This document shows, piece by piece, positions 509-62,215 of a stretch of DNA of 64,000 bases (the first letter of the stretch is position 1; each line of letters opens with the position of its first letter). The DNA comes from Ipomoea triloba (taxonomy: Eukaryota > Streptophyta > Magnoliopsida > Solanales > Convolvulaceae). A program made the position numbers and the translations under genes. Under the pieces are notes generated by a model. The model ran no database searches. It was not told the origin of the DNA and saw nothing but the letters and a program-made list of their open reading frames with translations. The stretch lies in NCBI RefSeq assembly GCF_003576645.1, contig NC_044922.1:21451368-21515367 (forward strand). The letters are read 5' to 3'.

Positions 509-2819
509 ATGGTTGTCCCACCTACTGAACAGCCAGGGGGCCCAGCCCCTGGAAGAAACGGGGGAGGCGATGAAGTATTGGTCTCGGTTCGAGCGGAGGA
601 GCACCCTACCCTCCCGGAGGGCAGAGGACACGGGGATCGCGCTGCACAAGGAAGCCAACCTAATGCGGCCTAACCCCCTAATGGAAGACGACAGGACATC
701 ATTGTCCCTCGCCCTTCCCAAACAGACGTGCGAGGGCAACACGTATCGGGGGATGTTAGTTTGGAAGGAGAGGGCGAAAGCGTCTATCGCCCAATGGAAC
801 GTTGGGATAACCGACCAGCCGATCCCCGCGAGGACTGGATCCGCAGGATCGACGCAAAGATGGAAGAGTTAATCCGGTGGAAAGAGTTGGGAGACCATCC
901 GGTCGTACCCAAAATAACAATCACCCCCCCATTTACCTCGGAGATCATGGGCGAACCTCTCCCGCCCAACTTCAAACCGCCTAACGTGAGGAGGTTCGAT
1001 GGAACTGGTGACCCGCAAGAACACATATTGTCCTACCTCGATGGAACTGGTGACCCGCAAGAACACATATTGTCCTACCAGGCCGCCATGATGCTGATGG
1101 GGTCGTCCGAGGCGGCCATGTGCCGAGCCATGATGCTGATGGGGTCGTCCGAGGCGGCCATGTGCCGAGCCTTCTTCTCCACGGGGTCGTCCGAGGCGGC
1201 CATGTGCCGAGCCTTCTTCTCCACATTGGCCGGAGGGGCTCAGCGTTGGTTCACCAACTTACCCGGCGGATCGATCGGTTCATTTCACGAATTGGCGATG
1301 AAATTCATCACCTGTTTCATGCGGGGGAGGAGGTGTAAAAAACATTTCACACACCTCGCGAGCTTAAAGCAAGGGAAGAATGAGACCCTGATGGAATTCC
1401 TTGTCCGTTGGCGAACGGAGGAGGCCGAAGTGGAGGACATGGATGACAGGTCGGCCATTGTCATGTTCATCTCCGCCCTGAGGGCGGGGGATCTATATAA
1501 AAGCCTACGCCGCAAAACGCCAAGGACCTACACCTCGCTGATGATGAAAGCCGACCGTTATGCGGAGGCGGAGGAAGCGAACCGTCTAAAACACCTGGAG
1601 GAGGAAGGAAGCAAGAGGTCGCGCACGGAAGGGTCCTCAAAGTCCGGGGGTAGCATGACCTCCCACCCCCGAAAGGGCATGGAAGAAGGGAAACCCAACC
1701 CAGGGAACAAGTCCCACGCGGGTTCTCGTATGCCACCCTGGGCACCAGCACCCCCCTCGGGCAGGACGCCTCACTTGGTACCCTTCACCCCTCTGAGAGC
1801 CCCGCCAAGCGACATATTGGCTTACGCCGAGGAATGTCACCTGGTGAGAACACCAGACCCGCGCCCCGACCCCTCGGGGGCGGACATGTCAAAATATTGC
1901 AAATACCATCGTTGCCATGGGCACAACATGAACGACTGTCAAGCGTGGAGGAAAGAAATAGAGAGATTGATACAGGCCGGCAAGTTGGGTAACTTTATAG
2001 ATTGGGACAGGATGGCCAAAAGGGACACGCGGGGAAGGGGTGCAACACCCCAAATACCGCAAACCGGAAAAGAAAAGGATAGAGACGAACCCAATCGACC
2101 AGTAATTAACGTCATATTTGGCGGGGAAGCCTTAGGGGAACAGGCCTTCGTGGGGGCTGTCGATGACCGCCCGGCCACGAAGAAGCCTCGACGGGAACCC
2201 ATCTGGTTCTCGGACAAAGACCTCCCGGCGAGGTCAACTGCCCCGAAGGACGCCCTCGTGATCTCGATGGTGGTCAACGGCGCTTGCGTAAGGAGAGTAC
2301 TAGTCGACACCGGAAGCAGCGTCAACGTCATGTACCATGACGTATTCCTGAAGCTGGGGCTCAGCGAGGACCAACTCACACCCGTACGGACCCCGTTGGC
2401 CGGGTTCACTGGAGACACGGTGGAAACGGAAGGTTCAATAACTCTGCCAGTCGAGCTGGGCACCCCACCCCGCGTTCGAGAAATGCACATGGAATTTGTT
2501 GTAGTCAAGGTGACGTGTACCCACAACCTCATCTTGGGGAGACCAGGGCTGGTCGGCTTAGGAGGACTCATCTCGATGGAGCACTTGTGTCTAAAATTCC
2601 ATACGGTGGCAGGAGTGGGGACCATTAGGGGAAACCAGCACTTAGCTCGAAAATGTTATAGCACGGCATGTGAGAAACTGGTGGCAAGCCCCCTGCCGGT
2701 TCATACCGTAGAGCCGGAGAGGGAGAGAAGTACTGGACCAGAACCTGCAGTAGAGCTAGAAGAAATCCCACTACACCCAAGTCGCCCCGACAGGTGTGTT
2801 AGAATAGGTAAAGGACTCG
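509..2819 (+). pseudogene. gag-protease, first (duplicated) assembly copy
   Basis: Retrotransposon capsid-type gag followed by an aspartic protease. The likely original start is ATG at 509, in frame with the long open stretch from 728, but a TAA at 671 breaks it. Visible parts: the gag core with a FHELAMKF motif near 1290; a CKYHRCHGHNMNDC zinc-knuckle-like motif near 1900, in the shape usual for Tat gag; and the protease motif VDTGSS near 2305. Three exact 42-bp tandem duplications occur between 996 and 1230. The reading stops at an N at 2820. Bases 1183-2819 appear identical to 2831-4467, so this block is probably the same DNA assembled twice rather than a second gene. Confidence 0.85.
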
Positions 2820-2820
2820 N
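2820..2820. other. Assembly gap base (N)
   Basis: A single N sits exactly where copy one of gag-protease ends and copy two begins. It marks an unresolved join, not a biological boundary. Confidence 0.95.
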
Positions 2821-2830
2821 TGATGCTGAT

Positions 2831-5222
2831 GGGGTCGTCCGAGGCGGCCATGTGCCGAGCCTTCTTCTCCACATTGGCCGGAGGGGCTCAGCGTTGGTTC
2901 ACCAACTTACCCGGCGGATCGATCGGTTCATTTCACGAATTGGCGATGAAATTCATCACCTGTTTCATGCGGGGGAGGAGGTGTAAAAAACATTTCACAC
3001 ACCTCGCGAGCTTAAAGCAAGGGAAGAATGAGACCCTGATGGAATTCCTTGTCCGTTGGCGAACGGAGGAGGCCGAAGTGGAGGACATGGATGACAGGTC
3101 GGCCATTGTCATGTTCATCTCCGCCCTGAGGGCGGGGGATCTATATAAAAGCCTACGCCGCAAAACGCCAAGGACCTACACCTCGCTGATGATGAAAGCC
3201 GACCGTTATGCGGAGGCGGAGGAAGCGAACCGTCTAAAACACCTGGAGGAGGAAGGAAGCAAGAGGTCGCGCACGGAAGGGTCCTCAAAGTCCGGGGGTA
3301 GCATGACCTCCCACCCCCGAAAGGGCATGGAAGAAGGGAAACCCAACCCAGGGAACAAGTCCCACGCGGGTTCTCGTATGCCACCCTGGGCACCAGCACC
3401 CCCCTCGGGCAGGACGCCTCACTTGGTACCCTTCACCCCTCTGAGAGCCCCGCCAAGCGACATATTGGCTTACGCCGAGGAATGTCACCTGGTGAGAACA
3501 CCAGACCCGCGCCCCGACCCCTCGGGGGCGGACATGTCAAAATATTGCAAATACCATCGTTGCCATGGGCACAACATGAACGACTGTCAAGCGTGGAGGA
3601 AAGAAATAGAGAGATTGATACAGGCCGGCAAGTTGGGTAACTTTATAGATTGGGACAGGATGGCCAAAAGGGACACGCGGGGAAGGGGTGCAACACCCCA
3701 AATACCGCAAACCGGAAAAGAAAAGGATAGAGACGAACCCAATCGACCAGTAATTAACGTCATATTTGGCGGGGAAGCCTTAGGGGAACAGGCCTTCGTG
3801 GGGGCTGTCGATGACCGCCCGGCCACGAAGAAGCCTCGACGGGAACCCATCTGGTTCTCGGACAAAGACCTCCCGGCGAGGTCAACTGCCCCGAAGGACG
3901 CCCTCGTGATCTCGATGGTGGTCAACGGCGCTTGCGTAAGGAGAGTACTAGTCGACACCGGAAGCAGCGTCAACGTCATGTACCATGACGTATTCCTGAA
4001 GCTGGGGCTCAGCGAGGACCAACTCACACCCGTACGGACCCCGTTGGCCGGGTTCACTGGAGACACGGTGGAAACGGAAGGTTCAATAACTCTGCCAGTC
4101 GAGCTGGGCACCCCACCCCGCGTTCGAGAAATGCACATGGAATTTGTTGTAGTCAAGGTGACGTGTACCCACAACCTCATCTTGGGGAGACCAGGGCTGG
4201 TCGGCTTAGGAGGACTCATCTCGATGGAGCACTTGTGTCTAAAATTCCATACGGTGGCAGGAGTGGGGACCATTAGGGGAAACCAGCACTTAGCTCGAAA
4301 ATGTTATAGCACGGCATGTGAGAAACTGGTGGCAAGCCCCCTGCCGGTTCATACCGTAGAGCCGGAGAGGGAGAGAAGTACTGGACCAGAACCTGCAGTA
4401 GAGCTAGAAGAAATCCCACTACACCCAAGTCGCCCCGACAGGTGTGTTAGAATAGGTAAAGGACTCGACCCTGAGTTACGGGAGCAGGTAATGGCCGTCC
4501 TAAGGGCATACTTCATAGTATTCGCTTGGGGCCCGGAGGACATGCCGGGCATAGACCGCTCCATTATCACACACAAATTGGCAGTGGATCCGAGTTTCCG
4601 ACCCATTAAGCAGAAACGCCGCCACCTGTCGGCTGATCGAAGAGCTTTTGTGAAAGCGGAGGTAGACACGTTGTTGGCAATAGGCCATATCCGAGAAGTG
4701 ATGTATCCAGCATGGCTAGCCAACGTCGTGCTGGCCCCAAAACCCCCCACATGGCGAATGTGCGTGGACTACACGGACCTCAACAAAGCTTGCCCTCAGG
4801 ATCCCTTTCCCCTACCCCGCACCGACCAGCTAGTAGACGAAACCGCCGGGTGCCAACTGCTCAGCTTCATGGATGCGTTTAAGGGGTATCACCAGATATT
4901 CATGGCGAAGGAAGATGAAGAAAAAACGGCGTTCGTCACCCCGGATGGTGTATATTGCTATAGAGTCATGGCTTTCAGCCTGAAAAATTCGGGCGCCACC
5001 TTCACCCGCATGGTGGCAGAAGTATTTAAGGAATTACTTGGCAACATCATGGAGGCCTACGTTGACGATATGCTGGTAAAAAGCAAGGAGGCCTCGACCC
5101 ATCCGGAGTATCTAGCCAAGTGCTTCGAGATCATGAAGCAAAAGAACCTGCGCCTAAACCCAAAAAAATGTGCATTCACAGTAAAATGGAGGAAAATTTT
5201 TAGGCTTCATGGTCACCCATAG
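2831..5222 (+). pseudogene. gag-protease-reverse transcriptase, continuous copy
   Basis: This copy lacks the 42-bp duplications and runs from gag through protease (VDTGSS near 3952) into reverse transcriptase. RT motifs in order: RMCVDYTDLN near 4755, LLSFMDAFKGYHQI near 4857, and the catalytic AYVDDMLVKS near 5057. The order fits Ty3/gypsy pol. A frameshift near 5185-5195 takes the ribosome out of frame just after the YVDD region: the conserved GKFLGFMVT stretch continues in another frame from about 5190. The protein is therefore truncated before RNase H. Confidence 0.9.
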
Positions 5223-39960: not shown

Positions 39961-40767
39961 ACTGAAAATTTTCTCCAGTTTTATGAAAATTTGGAAAACT
40001 GGAAAACAGAAAACACGTTTACTAACACAGCTTTCCATTTTGAAAACAGGAAATAATTTTCCAGTTTTCTATAAAACTGAAACACTATTAAAAGCTGTTT
40101 TGGGCGGGAAGTTAAAGTTGGGGATATTGTTTTTATTAATAGTATAGATATAGATTGTATTATGAATAGGAATTGTATTACCATATTTTAAAATACTACG
40201 CAAATCTTAACAGTATAGGAGTGTTTTGGGCCGAAAGTTAAAGTTGAGGATATTGTTTTTTATTATTAGTATAGATTGAACTGCAGGGAAATATCTGTAC
40301 TGTACAGTATTATTACGATTATTAATTTTAATCTAGAATTGTAATACGAATAGGAACATATGGAAGAAAATATTTTATTAGGAATTGTATTACCATATTT
40401 TAATGTACAATCGTATTACGAATATGAATTGTATTAATATATTTTAAGATATTACGTAAACCTTAACAGTATAGAAGTGTTTTGGGAGGGAAGTTATAGT
40501 TGAGGATATTATTTTTATTAATAGTATAGATTGCATTACAGGGAAATATATGTACTATATTATTACGATTAGTAATTTTAATCTAGAATTGTATTACGAA
40601 TACGAACGTAGAGAAGAAAATATTTTGTTAGGAATTGTATTATCATATTTTAATGTACAATTGTATTACGAATAGGAATTGTATTACCATATTTTAAAAT
40701 ATTTCGCAAACCTTAACAGTATAGGAGTGTTTTGGGCGGAGAGTTAAAGTTGAGGATATTGTTTTTA

Positions 40768-40945
40768 GGGAAAATGGTCAAATAGACCCCTAAACATTCC
40801 ACGAAAAGTCAATTAGGCACACGAACTTTTGAAAGGTGCAATTGAACACATTAAACTCACAATTTTGAGTCAATGAAACCCATTAACAGGTAACCTAACT
40901 TGTAAATGTCGGTAATTGCACATTTGACTAGCCACATCAGCTTTA
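40768..40945 (+). repeat. Left TIR of Pack-MULE
   Basis: Starts GGGAAAATGGTCAAATAGAC. Inverted partner of 42367-42543. Confidence 0.93.
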
Positions 40946-41092
40946 CTTTGTATTTAAATTGCCGCATAAGCCTTGTTAATTTCCTTTCTCACAAATTGTC
41001 GGCCTAGATAATGTATATAGTATACCAATCACAAGTAGCTAAGTCAACAAAGCCTAAAACTTGTAGTAACAGAGCTCAGACCCCTCCATCAA

Positions 41093-41640
41093 TGGCGGAT
41101 CAAGATTGCAAGCTTCATATATTGATGTTCCCATGACTAGCTTTCGGCCACATGATTCCATTTCTAGAGCTCACGAAGCTCATAGCTCAAAAGGGTCACA
41201 AAGTCTCCTTCGTTTCTACTCCCAGAAACATCGATCGCCTCCCCAAACTCCCCCCGACCCTAGTTCCTCTAATCAACTTCGTCAAGCTCCCTCTCCCGCC
41301 GACACCAAACCTGCCGGAAAACGCAGAGGCCACCATCGACCTCCCGTACGGCGACGTGAAGTACCTCAAGAAAGCGCACGATGGTCTCTGAGAAGCCATG
41401 TCTAAGTTTCTTCAAGAATCGCATCACGATTGTATTTTGTTTGTTTTCGATGCTTACTGTTGGAGGTTGCGTCGAAATTCGGTGTTTCTACGGCTTTCTC
41501 CAGTATCTGTATCGCCGCTTTATTAGGCTTCCTCAGGCTTGGACCGTCGGATTTTAAGTATGAGAAGAGGACAGCGGCGGAGGAATTCACCGTCCGGCCA
41601 AAATACATGGGTGCCGTTCAAAACGCCAGTCAGTGGACCC
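41093..41640 (+). pseudogene. UGT91-like glycosyltransferase fragment (N-terminal part)
   Basis: Captured N-terminal piece of a family-1 UDP-glycosyltransferase. MADQDCKLHILMF starts it at 41093, followed by a TGA where the conserved Trp is expected before [32 protein letters not shown] and [12 protein letters not shown] are typical of the UGT91 (flavonoid/anthocyanin rhamnosyltransferase-like) family. A stop after AHDGL, a frameshift near 41455 (SKFGVSTAF continues in another frame) and one near 41590 (WVPFKTPV) follow. The C-terminal half with the PSPG box is absent. Sugar donor and acceptor cannot be inferred. Confidence 0.85.
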
Positions 41641-41823
41641 ACACTGGTGGTGGGCGGCGCGTGCATGCACGCGCCACGATCTTCATATGCATTTCTTCTT
41701 CGGGATAAAATGAATGGGGTGCTTTCTTTCTTCCTCCCCTCCAACCCTTTTCTTCTTTAAATATTGGAAATGTCCTAATTCTTCATTCTGAGAAAGCAAG
41801 CAAGCAAGCAGAAGAAAAAAAAA

Positions 41824-42357
41824 ATGAAAGAAGCCGTTGAGCTATTTTTCTTCCCAGCACTTGGAATGGGGCACCTCTTATCTGCAGTTGAAATCGCAGA
41901 GCTCCTTATTCACAGAGACCACCATATCTCCATCACCATTTTCATCTTGACACCACCTTGCGACCTCAAAATCACTTCTTTCATCCAATCCCAAACCTCC
42001 GAAAGGCGACTGAAGTTCGTGACACTCCCATTGGACGAGTCGATCTCCATCAATCCCACTAACATTCCGGCCCCCTCGATGATCCCCATAGACTCTTTCA
42101 AGCCTCGAGTCAGAGAATGCGTTAAAGAAACCATCCGTAGCGTACGCCTGGGCGAATTCGTAATCGACATGTTCTCCACGGCCATGATTGACGTGGCGGA
42201 CGAGTTTGGAGTTCCGACCTATGTGTTCTACACCTCCGGCGGCGCCGTGCTCGGCTTCCTGCTACATATGCAGAGAATCACCTTGGAAGGTTTTAGAGCG
42301 CAGCGGGCAGAGGTTCCTGTGGTACTGAGGCGTATGCCGGAAAATGGTTCTCTTTAA
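41824..42357 (+). pseudogene. UGT71-like glycosyltransferase fragment (N-terminal half, open)
   Basis: An open frame of 177 aa: KEAVELFFFPALGMGHLLSA is the N-terminal acceptor-side motif with its GMGH catalytic-loop His; later FVIDMFSTAMIDVADEFGVP and TYVFYTSGGAVLGFLLHMQ. These match the N-terminal half of UGT71-type enzymes. It ends shortly after the captured part at a TAA outside the homology. The PSPG sugar-donor box is missing, so no enzyme activity is expected. About 160 bp upstream look like that gene's own 5' region: TTTAAATATT near 41756 and a purine-rich leader. Confidence 0.85.
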
Positions 42358-42366
42358 ATACAAAAC

Positions 42367-42543
42367 AAAGCTGATGTGGCCTAGTCAAATGTGCAATTAC
42401 CGGCATTTACAGTTTAGGTCACCGGTTAATGGGTTTCATTGACTCAAAATTGTGAGTTAATGTGTTCAATTGCACCTTTCAAAAGTTCGTGGGCCTAATT
42501 GACTTTTCGTGGAATGTTTAGGGGTCTATTTGATCCTTTTCCC
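42367..42543 (-). repeat. Right TIR of Pack-MULE
   Basis: Inverse of the left TIR; ends GATCCTTTTCCC. Confidence 0.93.
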
Positions 42544-43043
42544 TTGTTTTTATTAATTGTATAGATTGCATTACAGGGAAATATATGCACTGTATTATTA
42601 CGATTAGTAATTTTAATCTAGAATTGTATTACGAATAGGAAAATAGGGAAGAAAATATTTTAGTAGGAATTGTATTACCATATTTTAAAATATTATGCAA
42701 ATCTTAACAGTATAGGAGTGTTTTGGGCTGGAAGTTAATATTGAGGATATTGTTTTTTATTAATAGTATAGATTGCACTGCAGGAAATATATGCACTGTA
42801 CAGTATTATTACGATTAATAATTTTAATCTACAATTGTATTACAAATAGGAACTAGGGAAGAAAATATTTTATTAGGAATTGTTTTACCATATTTTAATG
42901 TACAATTGTATTACGAATATGAATTGTATTAATATATTTTAAAATATTACGCAAACCTTAAAGGTATTGAAGTGTTTTGGGAGGGAAGTTAAAGTTGAGG
43001 ATATTGTTTTTATTGATAGTATAGATTATAGTTATTATTTTCT

Positions 43044-57445: not shown

Positions 57446-58542
57446 AAATTTACATTAGTTACATATATAATTATATTAATATTAATATAAAATTACAATT
57501 AAAAGTATTAATTAATACATGTAAAAATTAATAATCATAATATGATGAAATTAACATCGCTCCTTAGGTGAGAATTGCGAAATACAATATAAATGCACAC
57601 AAATCTATCTTGGAGTAGATTGTTTACATTCATGTTGGTTATTACATCCTCACTTATAGGGTGGTTCTCATTTGATTATTAATATGCGTGTATGTGTGTT
57701 ATATAATTATATAAATATATAATGTTAGTAAACGATTTAAATAAATATATTGTTATACAAAAAAAATTAAATAAATTCTTTTAGCATTTAACTGATCTTG
57801 CTAGGTTAAGAATAAAGGAGAAACTAAGAGTTCAATTCTTACTATTAATATTATTTTCAAATTCTAATGCAAAATTATTACAAGCACATCTATATCTATA
57901 CTATTAATAAAAACAATATACTCAACTTTAACTTCCCGCCCAAAACACTCGTATACTATTAAGCTTTGCGTAATATTGTAAAATATGGTAATACAATTCC
58001 TATTCGTAGTACATTAAAATATGCTAATACAATTCCTAATAAAATATATTCTTCCCTGCGTTCCTAATTGTAATACAATTCTAGATTAAAATTACTAATC
58101 GTAATTATACAGTACATATATTTTCCTACAATGCAATCTATACTATTAATAAAAACAATATCCTCATCTTTAACTTTTCGCCCAAAACACTCCTATACTA
58201 TTAAGGTTTGCATAAAATTGTAAAATATGGTAATACAATTCCTATTCGTAATACAATTATACATTAAAATATGCTAATACAATTCCTAATAAAATATGTT
58301 CTTCCCTACGTTCCTGTTTGTAATACAATTCTAGATTAAAATTACTAATCATAATAATACAGTACATATATTTCACTGCAATACAATCTATACTATTAAT
58401 AAAAACAATATCCTCAACTTTAACTTCCCGCCCAAAACACTCCTATACTATTAAGAATTGCATAATATTGTAAAATATGGTAATACAATTTCTATTCGTA
58501 ACACAATTGTACATTAAAATATGGTAACATAATTCCTAATAA

Positions 58543-58641
58543 ACCCAATGGGGTAGCTCAAGTGGCAAATGAGCTCTCTTTATGGGGAAAATTCCAGGAG
58601 AACCTGTGTACGATTCCCCTTGGGCCAGCTCCCGTGCCTCC
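58543..58641 (+). mobile_element. SINE fragment, family S1 (head)
   Basis: A box TAGCTCAAGTGGC (58554-58566) and B-box-like TGTACGATTCC (58607-58617), then CTTGGGCCAGCTCCCGTG. It lacks the 3' half that the 28872 and 36750 copies keep. Confidence 0.75.
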
Positions 58642-60941
58642 CTATACAATTCCTATTCGTAATACATTACAATTACTAATAAAATATATTCTTACAATTG
58701 TTTAATATGCGGTAATAATATAGTACATATATTTCTTTGCAATTCAATATATACTATTAATAAAAACAATATTCTCAGCTTTAACTGAAACACTCCATTC
58801 AATATATCTATACTATTAATAAAAACAATATTCTCAGCTTTAACTCCCGCCTGAAACACTCCATTCAATATATCTATACTATACTATTAATAAAAACAAT
58901 ATCCTCAATATATAAACAGACCTATAATATTATAAAAACAATATCCTCAATCTTAACTTCCCGCCCAAAACAGACCTATAATATTATGATTTGTGTAATA
59001 TTGTAAAATATGGTAATACAATTCCTATCCCTAATACAATTGTAAATTAAAATAGAATTCCTAATAAAATATATTATTCCCTACGTTCCTATTCGTAATA
59101 CAATCATAGACTAGAATTACTAATGGTAATAATTCAGTATATATATTTCTCTGCAATGCAATCTATACTATTAATAAAAACAATATCCTCAGTTTTAACT
59201 TCCCGCCCAAAACAGACTTATAATATTATGGTTTGCGTAATATTGTAAAATATGGTACTACAATTCCTATCCCTGATACAATTGTAAATTAAAATAGAAT
59301 TCCTAATAAAATATATTATTCCCTACGTTTCTATTCGTAATACAATTCTAAACTAGAATTACTAATGGTAATAATTCAGTATATATATTTCTCTGCAATG
59401 CAATCTATACTATTAATCTATACTATTAATAAAAACAATATCCTCAGTCTTAACTTCCCGCCCAAAACAGACCTATAATATTATGATTTGCGTAATATTG
59501 TAAAATATGGTAATACAATTCCTATCCCTAATACAATTGTAAATTAAAATAGAATTCCTAATAAAATATATTATTCCCTACGTTTCTATTCGTAATACAA
59601 TTCTAAACTAGAATTACTAATGGTAATAATTCAGTATATATATTTCTCTGCAATGCAATCTATACTATTAATCTATACTATTAATAAAAACAATATCCTC
59701 AGTCTTAACTTCCCGCCCAAAACAGACCTATAATATTATGATTTGCGTAATATTGTAAAATATGGTAATACAATTTCTATCCCTAATACAATTGTAAATT
59801 AAAATAGAATTCCTAATAAAATATATTCTTCCCTTCGTAATAAAATCATAGACTAGAATTACTAATGTTAATAATTCAGTATATATATTTCTCTGCAATG
59901 CAATCTATACTATTAATCTATACTATTAATAAAAACAATATCCTCAATTTTAACTTCCCGCCCAAAACAGACCGATAGTATTATGGTATGGTTTGCGTAA
60001 TATTGTAAAATATGGTAATACAATTCCTATTCCTAATACAATTGTAAATTAAAATAGAATTCCTAATAAAATATATTATTCCCTACGTTCGTATTCGTAA
60101 TACAATTCTAGACTAGAATTACTAATGGTAATAATTCAGTATATATATTTCTCTGCAATGCAATCTATACTATTAATAAAAACAATATCCTCAGTCTTAA
60201 CTTCCCGCCCAAAACAGACCTATAATATTATGATTTGCGTAATATTGTAAAATATGGTAATACAATTTCTATCCCTAATACAATTGTAAATTAAAATAGA
60301 ATTCCTAATAAAATATATTCTTCCCTTCGTAATACAATCATAGACTAGAATTACTAATGGTAATAATTCAGTATATATATTTCTCTGCAATGCAATCTAT
60401 ACTATTAATAAAAACAATATCTTCAGTCTTAACTTCCCGCCCAAAACAGACTTATAATATTATGGTTTGCGTAATATTGTAAAATATGGTAATACAATTC
60501 CTATCCCTAATACAATTGTAAATTAAAATGGAATTCCTAATAAAATATATTATTCCCTACGTTCCTATTCGTAATACAATTCTAGACTAGAATTACTAAT
60601 GGTAATAATCCAGTATATATATTTCTCTGCAATGCAATCTATACTATTAATCTATACTATTAATAAAAACAATATCCTCAGTTTTAACTTCCCGCCCAAA
60701 ACAGACCTATAATATTTTGGTGTGCGTAATATTGTAAAATATGGTAATACAATTCCTGTCCCTAATACAATTGTAAATTAAAATAGAATTCCTAATAAAA
60801 TATATTCTTCCATACGTTCCTATTCGTAATACAATTCTAGACTAGAATTACTAATGGTAATAATTCAGTATATATATTTTTCTGCAATGCAATCTATACT
60901 ATTAATAAAAAATTCAGTATATATATTTCTCTGCAATGCAA

Positions 60942-61888
60942 TCTATACTATTAATAAAAACAATATGAAAATTTGGCATAATTCAACCCGCAAGGCCAAT
61001 TTTCTGAACGACATTCGTGCATGCAGGTGTCTTTTTAAGTTCATTTTGGGATTTCATTTGCACCCCCCCTGCGCGCGAGAGAGAGCCTCTATGCTATACA
61101 ATTCAATAAGCCTTAGAAAAACTCTTGTATAAGTAGTGGTGCAAACCACTTCTCAAACCAATGTGGGACAAAATTTACTTGAAAGGTTTTTCTCTATATA
61201 TTTCTAACTCAAATGGGTTAACTTTGACAACCAATTTCTCATTCACCAATTATCAGTTTTGAGCGTACAATATCTCAATCTTTTCGTCTAACTACGAAGA
61301 ACACGAATCCACTTTGACCCGACCCAAATCGAAAGTGGGCCCCACATATATTTGTACCACAATATTGCCAGTAAAATGCCATTTTATGCTAATTTTTTTC
61401 CAACAGTTATTTGTCCAGAGAATATCAACGTGTTGAAGGAAGAAGATGATATATAGTGAAGGCCAATATCATCTTCACTATATATCATCTTCTTCCTCCA
61501 ACACAACGCTCTACGGTCAACCAACAATTACTCAACTGATTATCCCATTACTCCCATGTAAATTTTTCTCTAATATAGTTATACTTACTGAATATCAAAA
61601 TATAAGTGTAGCTCAAGATCTTGCAATAACTAACCGACAAGTAATTAAATTAATGAATATGATGCAATAATGTAAATTATCTACCTATTGCATTTATACA
61701 CTTATTTTAGAACACTGAATTTTTGAGATATTTGTTGCATGCAAGGAAGACTCATACTATAATTGCATTTATACACTTATTCATTCTCATATTCGATGTC
61801 ATAATTTATATAATTGTATATCGATTCAAATATTTCTTAAAATATTATAACAAATTCATTCCGTGCAACGCACGGGTGAAAATTCTAG
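60942..61888 (+). mobile_element. Non-autonomous Helitron candidate (947 bp)
   Basis: Starts TCTATACTATTAATAAAA and ends with the hairpin CCGTGC-AAC-GCACGG, GTGAAAATT and CTAG. Flanked by A (60941) and T (61889), the Helitron target. No helicase; interior is non-coding. It contains a long inverted repeat at 61431-61503. Confidence 0.75.
61431..61503. repeat. 30-bp inverted repeat with 13-bp loop
   Basis: Arms 61431-61460 and 61474-61503, one mismatch; loop 61461-61473. Confidence 0.9.
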
Positions 61889-62215
61889 TACTATTAATAA
61901 AAACAATATCCTCAGTTTTAACTCCCGCCCGAAACACTCCTATACTATTAAGGTTTGCGTAATATTGTAAAATATGGTAATACAATTCCTATTCGTAATA
62001 TAATTGTACATTAAAATATGGTAATACAATTACTAATAAAATATATTCTTACCTACGTTCCTATTCGTAATACAATTTTAGATTAAAATTACTAATCGTA
62101 ATAATACAGTACATATATTTCCATGCAATGTAATCTATACTATCTATACTATAACTAAAAACAATATCCTCAACTTTAACTTTCCGCCCAAAACACTCTT
62201 ATACTATTAAGCAAC

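Follow-up and report, generated by a model that had tools for sequence, protein, structure and literature searches.

A Pack-MULE of Ipomoea triloba carrying fragments of two glycosyltransferase subfamilies, probably captured one after the other

Here we analysed a stretch of 64,000 nucleotides of Ipomoea triloba DNA (the window, hereafter) and confirmed that its segment 40768-42543 is a non-autonomous Mutator-like element, a Pack-MULE. Comparison with the rest of the genome shows that this single element, bounded by terminal inverted repeats (TIRs), holds fragments apparently drawn from two glycosyltransferase (UGT) genes of two chromosomes, and that three copies of it stand between target duplications. 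The history that very probably accounts for these data would be a stepwise one, in which a UGT91 fragment was captured and decayed, a UGT71 fragment was captured afterwards, and the resulting chimera was spread in trans and left to drift.

Ends of the element and its insertion site

An earlier note on this DNA had reported inverted ends of 177 bp; inverted ends are present, but their alignment extends them to 191 bp, with the left TIR (beginning with GGGAAAATGG) at 40768-40958 on the plus strand and the right TIR at 42353-42543 on the minus strand. The alignment, which includes one matching flank base per side, has 181 matches, 10 mismatches and 2 gaps (BLAST identity 93.75% over 192, about 94%). 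Abutting the exact TIR ends are the two copies of the target site duplication (TSD) TTGTTTTTA, at 40759-40767 and 42544-42552, which are identical at 9/9 positions, as had been read before; two random 9-mers drawn from the 2-kb flanks would be identical by chance with a probability of about 0.001.

The insertion interrupts a tandem array of a 250-bp repeat, the left part of which occupies 40157-40767 on the plus strand and which resumes 3' of the element to about 43027. Once joined without the element and with one TSD, the flanks align through to other units of the array. Leaving aside the right flank of the element itself, we found the uninterrupted target TTGTTTTTATTAAT at 40127 on the plus strand and at 15 places on the minus strand between 57.9 and 61.9 kb. 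Because the flanks align through sister units and the unbroken target is found elsewhere, we regard this as the insertion of a transposon whose empty site is still visible. A second array of the same repeat, in the opposite orientation and retaining the uninterrupted target, extends over 57894-62211. Near the start of the window, at 674-5222, two long overlapping frames repeat one gag-pol-like stretch (a retroelement by eye) around an N base, a repeat due perhaps to local duplication within the retroelement or to its faulty assembly.

Long TIRs together with duplications of 9-11 bp mark Mutator-like elements in the accessible text of PMC3310237. Pack-MULEs are recognised by long TIRs (at least about 100 bp), TSDs of 9-11 bp, fragments of host genes and presence at several sites, each of which was found here; no transposase of its own is present in the element, since the TIRs, the UGT pieces and short subterminal stretches account for all 1776 bp. 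The identity proposed in the earlier note is thereby borne out by the TIRs, the TSD, the captured fragments, the missing transposase and the three copies. Alignment to the intact UGT91 gene on C12 (genomic contigs are given as C numbers, and the window lies on C7) places the left subterminal sequence at 40959-40990; the UGT91 capture may begin a few bases to the left of this border, and TIR similarity reaches 40971 in the family members L033 and L034.

The two captured fragments

The first fragment, at 40991-41632 on the plus strand, comprises about 101 bp upstream of an ATG at 41092 followed by about 180 codons, out of the at least 472 of the C12 gene. Its best match among solved structures is 7erx (E 7.6e-23) and its closest relatives in nr are named UDP-glycosyltransferase 91A1-like. 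Compared with the C12 gene it carries a TGG-to-TGA stop, a 4-nt deletion and a 4-nt insertion, all of which are common to 3/3 copies of the element, and the window copy has one further, private stop.

The second fragment starts with an upstream region at 41647-41823, which contains a TATA-like TTTAAATA (by eye) and a 5' leader as judged from alignment to an intact gene on C8, and continues with a coding piece at 41824-42297 whose ATG is at 41824 and which is open over residues 1-158 of 466. A second segment at 42292-42352, with a 1-nt deletion inside, corresponds to residues of about 283-303; all three parts are on the plus strand. The coding piece is identical to the protein P0007 at 147/158 amino acids. 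Its top two structure matches, 8w53 and 8wp5, are named only Glycosyltransferase; of those with a more specific name, UGT71AP2 (E 1.2e-26) and UGT71G1 (E 4.2e-19) match best. Structure and nr matches hence agree with the earlier description of UGT91-like and UGT71-like N-terminal pieces in one orientation. In Pfam the UGT91 piece gave a weak Glyco_transf_28 match below the cut-off (E 0.017) and no family was found for the UGT71 piece; such poor matching is expected of N-terminal halves.

Both UGT71 segments match one and the same C8 gene, about 370 bp apart. In this gene TTTAGAG stands on either side of the joint, giving 7 bp of microhomology across the deletion. The UGT71 part had previously been described as open over 177 codons. 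That reading frame is indeed open in the window, but only its first 158 codons are UGT71 N-terminus, the last 19 lying past the deletion and being read partly out of frame. In the C1 and C10 copies the frame ends at 159 amino acids with a TAG just past the joint, where the window copy has CAG; the 177-codon frame is a later extension in the window copy.

Between the two fragments lies a strip, here called X (41633-41659), which resembles the subterminal sequence of the TIR family and overlaps the start of the UGT71 similarity at 41647. It matches DNA near one end of the UGT-free family members L033 (C15) and L034 (C13) over 27 bp at 92.6% (E 9e-5), and, being 27 bp long and G-rich, would by itself be weak evidence.

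Donor-like genes and copies in the genome

The genome searched comprised 461,989,178 bases in 17 contigs; only best-scoring candidates were taken, and the copy counts are lower bounds. The UGT91 part (40959-41632) was found at at least 8 places, namely the window, C1, C10 (two), an intact gene on C12, C3 (76%) and C5 (two, 69%). The C12 gene is 90% identical over 40991-41599 of the window and showed no stop in the 472 codons read. The UGT71 part (41633-42352) was found at at least 12 places: the three copies of the element, the C8 gene (two places), a second C8 gene (two, 89%), C11 (83%) and C1/C2 (four short, weak matches). The first C8 gene encodes 466 amino acids and has 95% DNA identity to the UGT71 piece; the I. 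triloba protein P0008 matches C8 at 467/467 residues. A search for parental UGT genes, suggested in the earlier note, was thus productive, and the closest intact genes are on different chromosomes, although those on C12 and C8 may be close paralogues of the true donors.

The chimera is present in at least three copies with differing flanks, in the window, at C1:30372980-30374699 over its whole length (TSD 8/9) and at C10:13606783-13608414 with a 149-bp deletion in UGT91 (TSD 9/9). Substitutions amount to 2.0% between the C7 and C1 copies, 3.6% between C7 and C10 and 3.9% between C1 and C10.

For the TIR family, the best 40 of 972 candidate matches to the left TIR were scored, the window's own two included, and 12 TIR pairs picked by eye from these 40 (two of the pairs being chimera copies) were compared for TSDs, end shifts of up to 3 being allowed. 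A 9/9 duplication was present without shift in 8/12 and only with shifted ends in 2/12, one of the latter in poly-T; the others were one 8/9 (the C1 copy) and one of 6/9 at best. Recent movement of the family is suggested by L033 and L034, which are 98.9% alike over 1427 bp and whose 9-bp duplications differ. Among the best 150 of 892 candidate places for the PF10551 transposase, the nearest is 18 kb from any of the best 40 of 972 TIR places, and no link between a transposase and this TIR family emerged among them. Two further family members contain reading frames of their own. That in L041:1092-2628 has 96 residues without a match in Pfam or PDB, and we take it to resemble a piece of CYP707A; that in L037:1064-2586 matches BCAS3 weakly (E 0.0015), scoring 17.6 bits where the Pfam cut-off is 26.3.

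Order of the captures

The position of the subterminal-like strip X between the UGT91 and UGT71 pieces fits two captures better than one and, together with the location of the closest genes on C12 and C8, supports the two separate captures that had been proposed. Protein models of related species bear on their order. P0014 of I. batatas contains the UGT91 piece and the UGT91-X junction (11/15 amino acids, in a frame-shifted reading), and past the junction runs into subterminal MULE sequence in translation (27/38 amino acids, E 1e-15), without UGT71; it is a gene model seen without its DNA or any TIRs around it, and no match to its first 117 residues was found among the loci compared. In another I. 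batatas model, P0134, a cyclophilin piece comes after the UGT91-X junction (best PDB match a cyclophilin, E 3e-6), and P0133, P0135 and P0136 of the same species combine UGT91 and cyclophilin parts, X not being shown in them. The parts of P0136, which carries the name DDR4, gave 13 genome matches: to UGT91 genes (C12 best), for residues 87-116 to C9 and C1:28083850, and for the tail to C1:9747837-9748249. P0133-P0136 look like models covering another Pack-MULE. P0001 of I. trifida includes both UGT pieces. Besides the UGT91 piece, P0006 of I. batatas includes an out-of-frame reading of X and of some UGT71 upstream sequence; P0001 and P0006 alike have the frame of the 4-nt deletion as in the window element.

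Because X resembles subterminal DNA and P0014 runs from UGT91-X into subterminal DNA without UGT71, UGT91 was probably captured first and UGT71 second, an order that appears well supported and that rests partly on the protein model of a relative. A single UGT91 capture followed by different second captures would be the simplest history, the relatives being known from gene models. Rather unlikely, in our judgement, is a broader version in which the UGT91-bearing MULE served as a scaffold for repeated second captures, of UGT71 in I. triloba, I. trifida and I. batatas or of cyclophilin in I. batatas (P0134), and in which RNA from the double-UGT copies could act on two UGT families at once.

The earlier note had also suggested comparing the divergence of the two pieces. 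Relative to the intact genes, the UGT91 piece of the window copy is the more diverged one at positions 1+2 of its codons (25/338, compared with 8/316 in UGT71, p 0.006), but the two do not differ significantly at 4-fold sites (12/67 against 7/72, p 0.22) nor in the upstream parts, where the direction is opposite (3/98 against 13/165, p 0.18). Figures for the C1 and C10 copies are similar. Divergence alone does not date the captures, as the tests disagree. In the UGT71 piece, 11 synonymous and 3 nonsynonymous differences from the C8 gene are fixed, against 6 and 13 that vary among copies (Fisher p 0.013), and the latter are compatible with neutrality (expected synonymous fraction 0.29, p 0.80); from this pattern the piece looks to have been constrained before capture and free afterwards. 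The corresponding counts for UGT91, made under a laxer gap rule, are 20 and 21 for fixed differences and 6 and 10 among copies, and the fixed differences of the two pieces compare at p 0.067. UGT91 has perhaps drifted longer than UGT71.

Placing these results into the stepwise history, a MULE would have acquired the 5' part of a UGT91 gene, and this copy would have decayed by one stop and two 4-nt frameshifts. The 5' part of a UGT71 gene would then have been acquired between a subterminal remnant and the right TIR, and an internal stretch of the UGT71 sequence would have been deleted at the 7-bp microhomology. A transposase acting in trans would have carried the chimera to three or more sites, where 9-bp target duplications were formed, and the copies would now be drifting. 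We infer the decay of UGT91 before the UGT71 capture, the transposase, and the biochemistry of capture, which may have been template switching or gap repair. Template switching is discussed in animals in the accessible text of PMC8277862.

Alternative explanations

The two pieces belong to one superfamily, share one orientation and are both 5' ends, as would be the case had they come in a single capture from a tandem UGT locus, or were this a plain tandem UGT locus that later gained inverted repeats. The earlier note had named as the mark of such an origin the occurrence of both pieces side by side at a locus without TIRs; none was found in the whole-genome searches of the assembly, the pieces being together only in the three TIR elements, while their closest intact genes are on C12 and C8, MULE subterminal-like sequence separates them and the element-free site is visible in sister array units. 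We dropped both readings after these searches and consider them very improbable. A capture of UGT71 first, or of both pieces in one template-switching event, is unlikely in a lesser degree: the larger divergence upstream of UGT71 and the lack of a significant difference at 4-fold sites would go with it, but P0014 passes from UGT91-X into subterminal MULE sequence with no UGT71, P0134 has the same junction ahead of a cyclophilin piece, and the small shared lesions are located in UGT91. A search of the I. triloba genome for an element with UGT91 only found none. An assembly artefact is the least credible of the origins considered, and we give it almost no weight; the window does contain 2 N bases, but those noticed are in the retroelement near its start, and the chimera exists in three copies with different flanks and TSDs and as protein models in two other Ipomoea species.

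Compared with the stepwise history and its drifting copies, it seems distinctly unlikely that the chimera works as a gene or gives rise to small RNAs controlling the two donor UGT genes. The sugar-donor binding motif of the C-terminal half of UGTs is the PSPG box. Both pieces lack this half with its motif, and the residues present are 1-158 and about 283-303 of the 466 of the C8 gene and about 180 of the at least 472 codons of the C12 gene. Enzyme function would be unlikely because the C-terminal half is missing, UGT91 is broken and the UGT71 changes among copies appear neutral. A working chimeric protein was considered as well; the stops and frameshifts weigh against it, as do the neutral pattern and the absence of the C-terminal half, and the UGT91 and UGT71 pieces do not form one open reading frame. 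Two database models that cover this chimera, P0001 of I. trifida and P0006 of I. batatas, would favour a working gene, but they are predictions only, and UGT71 has no residues past 158 save the short second segment. As regards small RNAs, the element shares exact 21-mers with a 5-kb region of the C8 gene (195), with the second C8 region (132) and with a 7-kb C12 region (109), and its internal part shares 0 with eight other family loci; cross-talk between the element and the donor genes may be possible in principle.

Relation to known elements

The original work on rice Pack-MULEs is reportedly that of Jiang et al. in 2004. Over 3000 such elements in rice are given in the accessible text of PMC8903248 and PMC4858842, where they are described, like the element studied here, as non-autonomous MULEs with captured gene fragments, some of them from multiple loci. 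The present case differs from them in that its fragments stem from two subfamilies within a single superfamily, and in that a one-capture stage seems to be visible in the protein model of a relative. According to the available portion of PMC4858842, 5-10% of the putative chimeric genes derived from MULEs in Oryza draw on at least two parental genes, so that material of two genes in one MULE is shared with our element; those chimeras were, however, called from annotated ORFs, whereas the pieces here form no single ORF. The tomato PM-ZIBP Pack-MULEs resemble it in being from a dicot and in having several copies with different TSDs, and differ in having one captured gene (a zinc-ion binding protein) and, in some copies, inner TIRs, as far as the available text of PMC3310237 goes. 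Pack-CACTA and other Pack-TYPE elements are likewise TIR transposons with multi-locus captures, although of other superfamilies (PMC8903248 and PMC13317346, accessible parts).

Fragments from multiple loci are known in Pack-MULEs and Pack-TYPE elements from what is accessible of PMC8903248, PMC4858842 and PMC13317346. Multi-gene Pack-MULEs are already known, and this element is a good added example, not a new kind. Searches of titles and the openings of abstracts returned no report of it or of UGT capture by Pack-MULEs, and the accessible text of a sweet potato transposon paper (PMC3946583) has the term Pack-MULE once, glucosyltransferase never and no mention of this element. A search of viral contigs gave no result. 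Our impression from the accessible literature is that multi-gene Pack-MULEs have mostly been described as finished products. The present case allows a finished chimera to be set beside a leftover strip, a one-capture model, a model in which the second gene is another one, and intact donor-like genes, and therefore the order and the joints of serial gene capture become testable. For annotation these results carry a warning, as several UGT models of sweet potato and I. trifida seem to be pieces of transposons, namely P0001 and P0006 and probably also P0014 and P0133-P0136.
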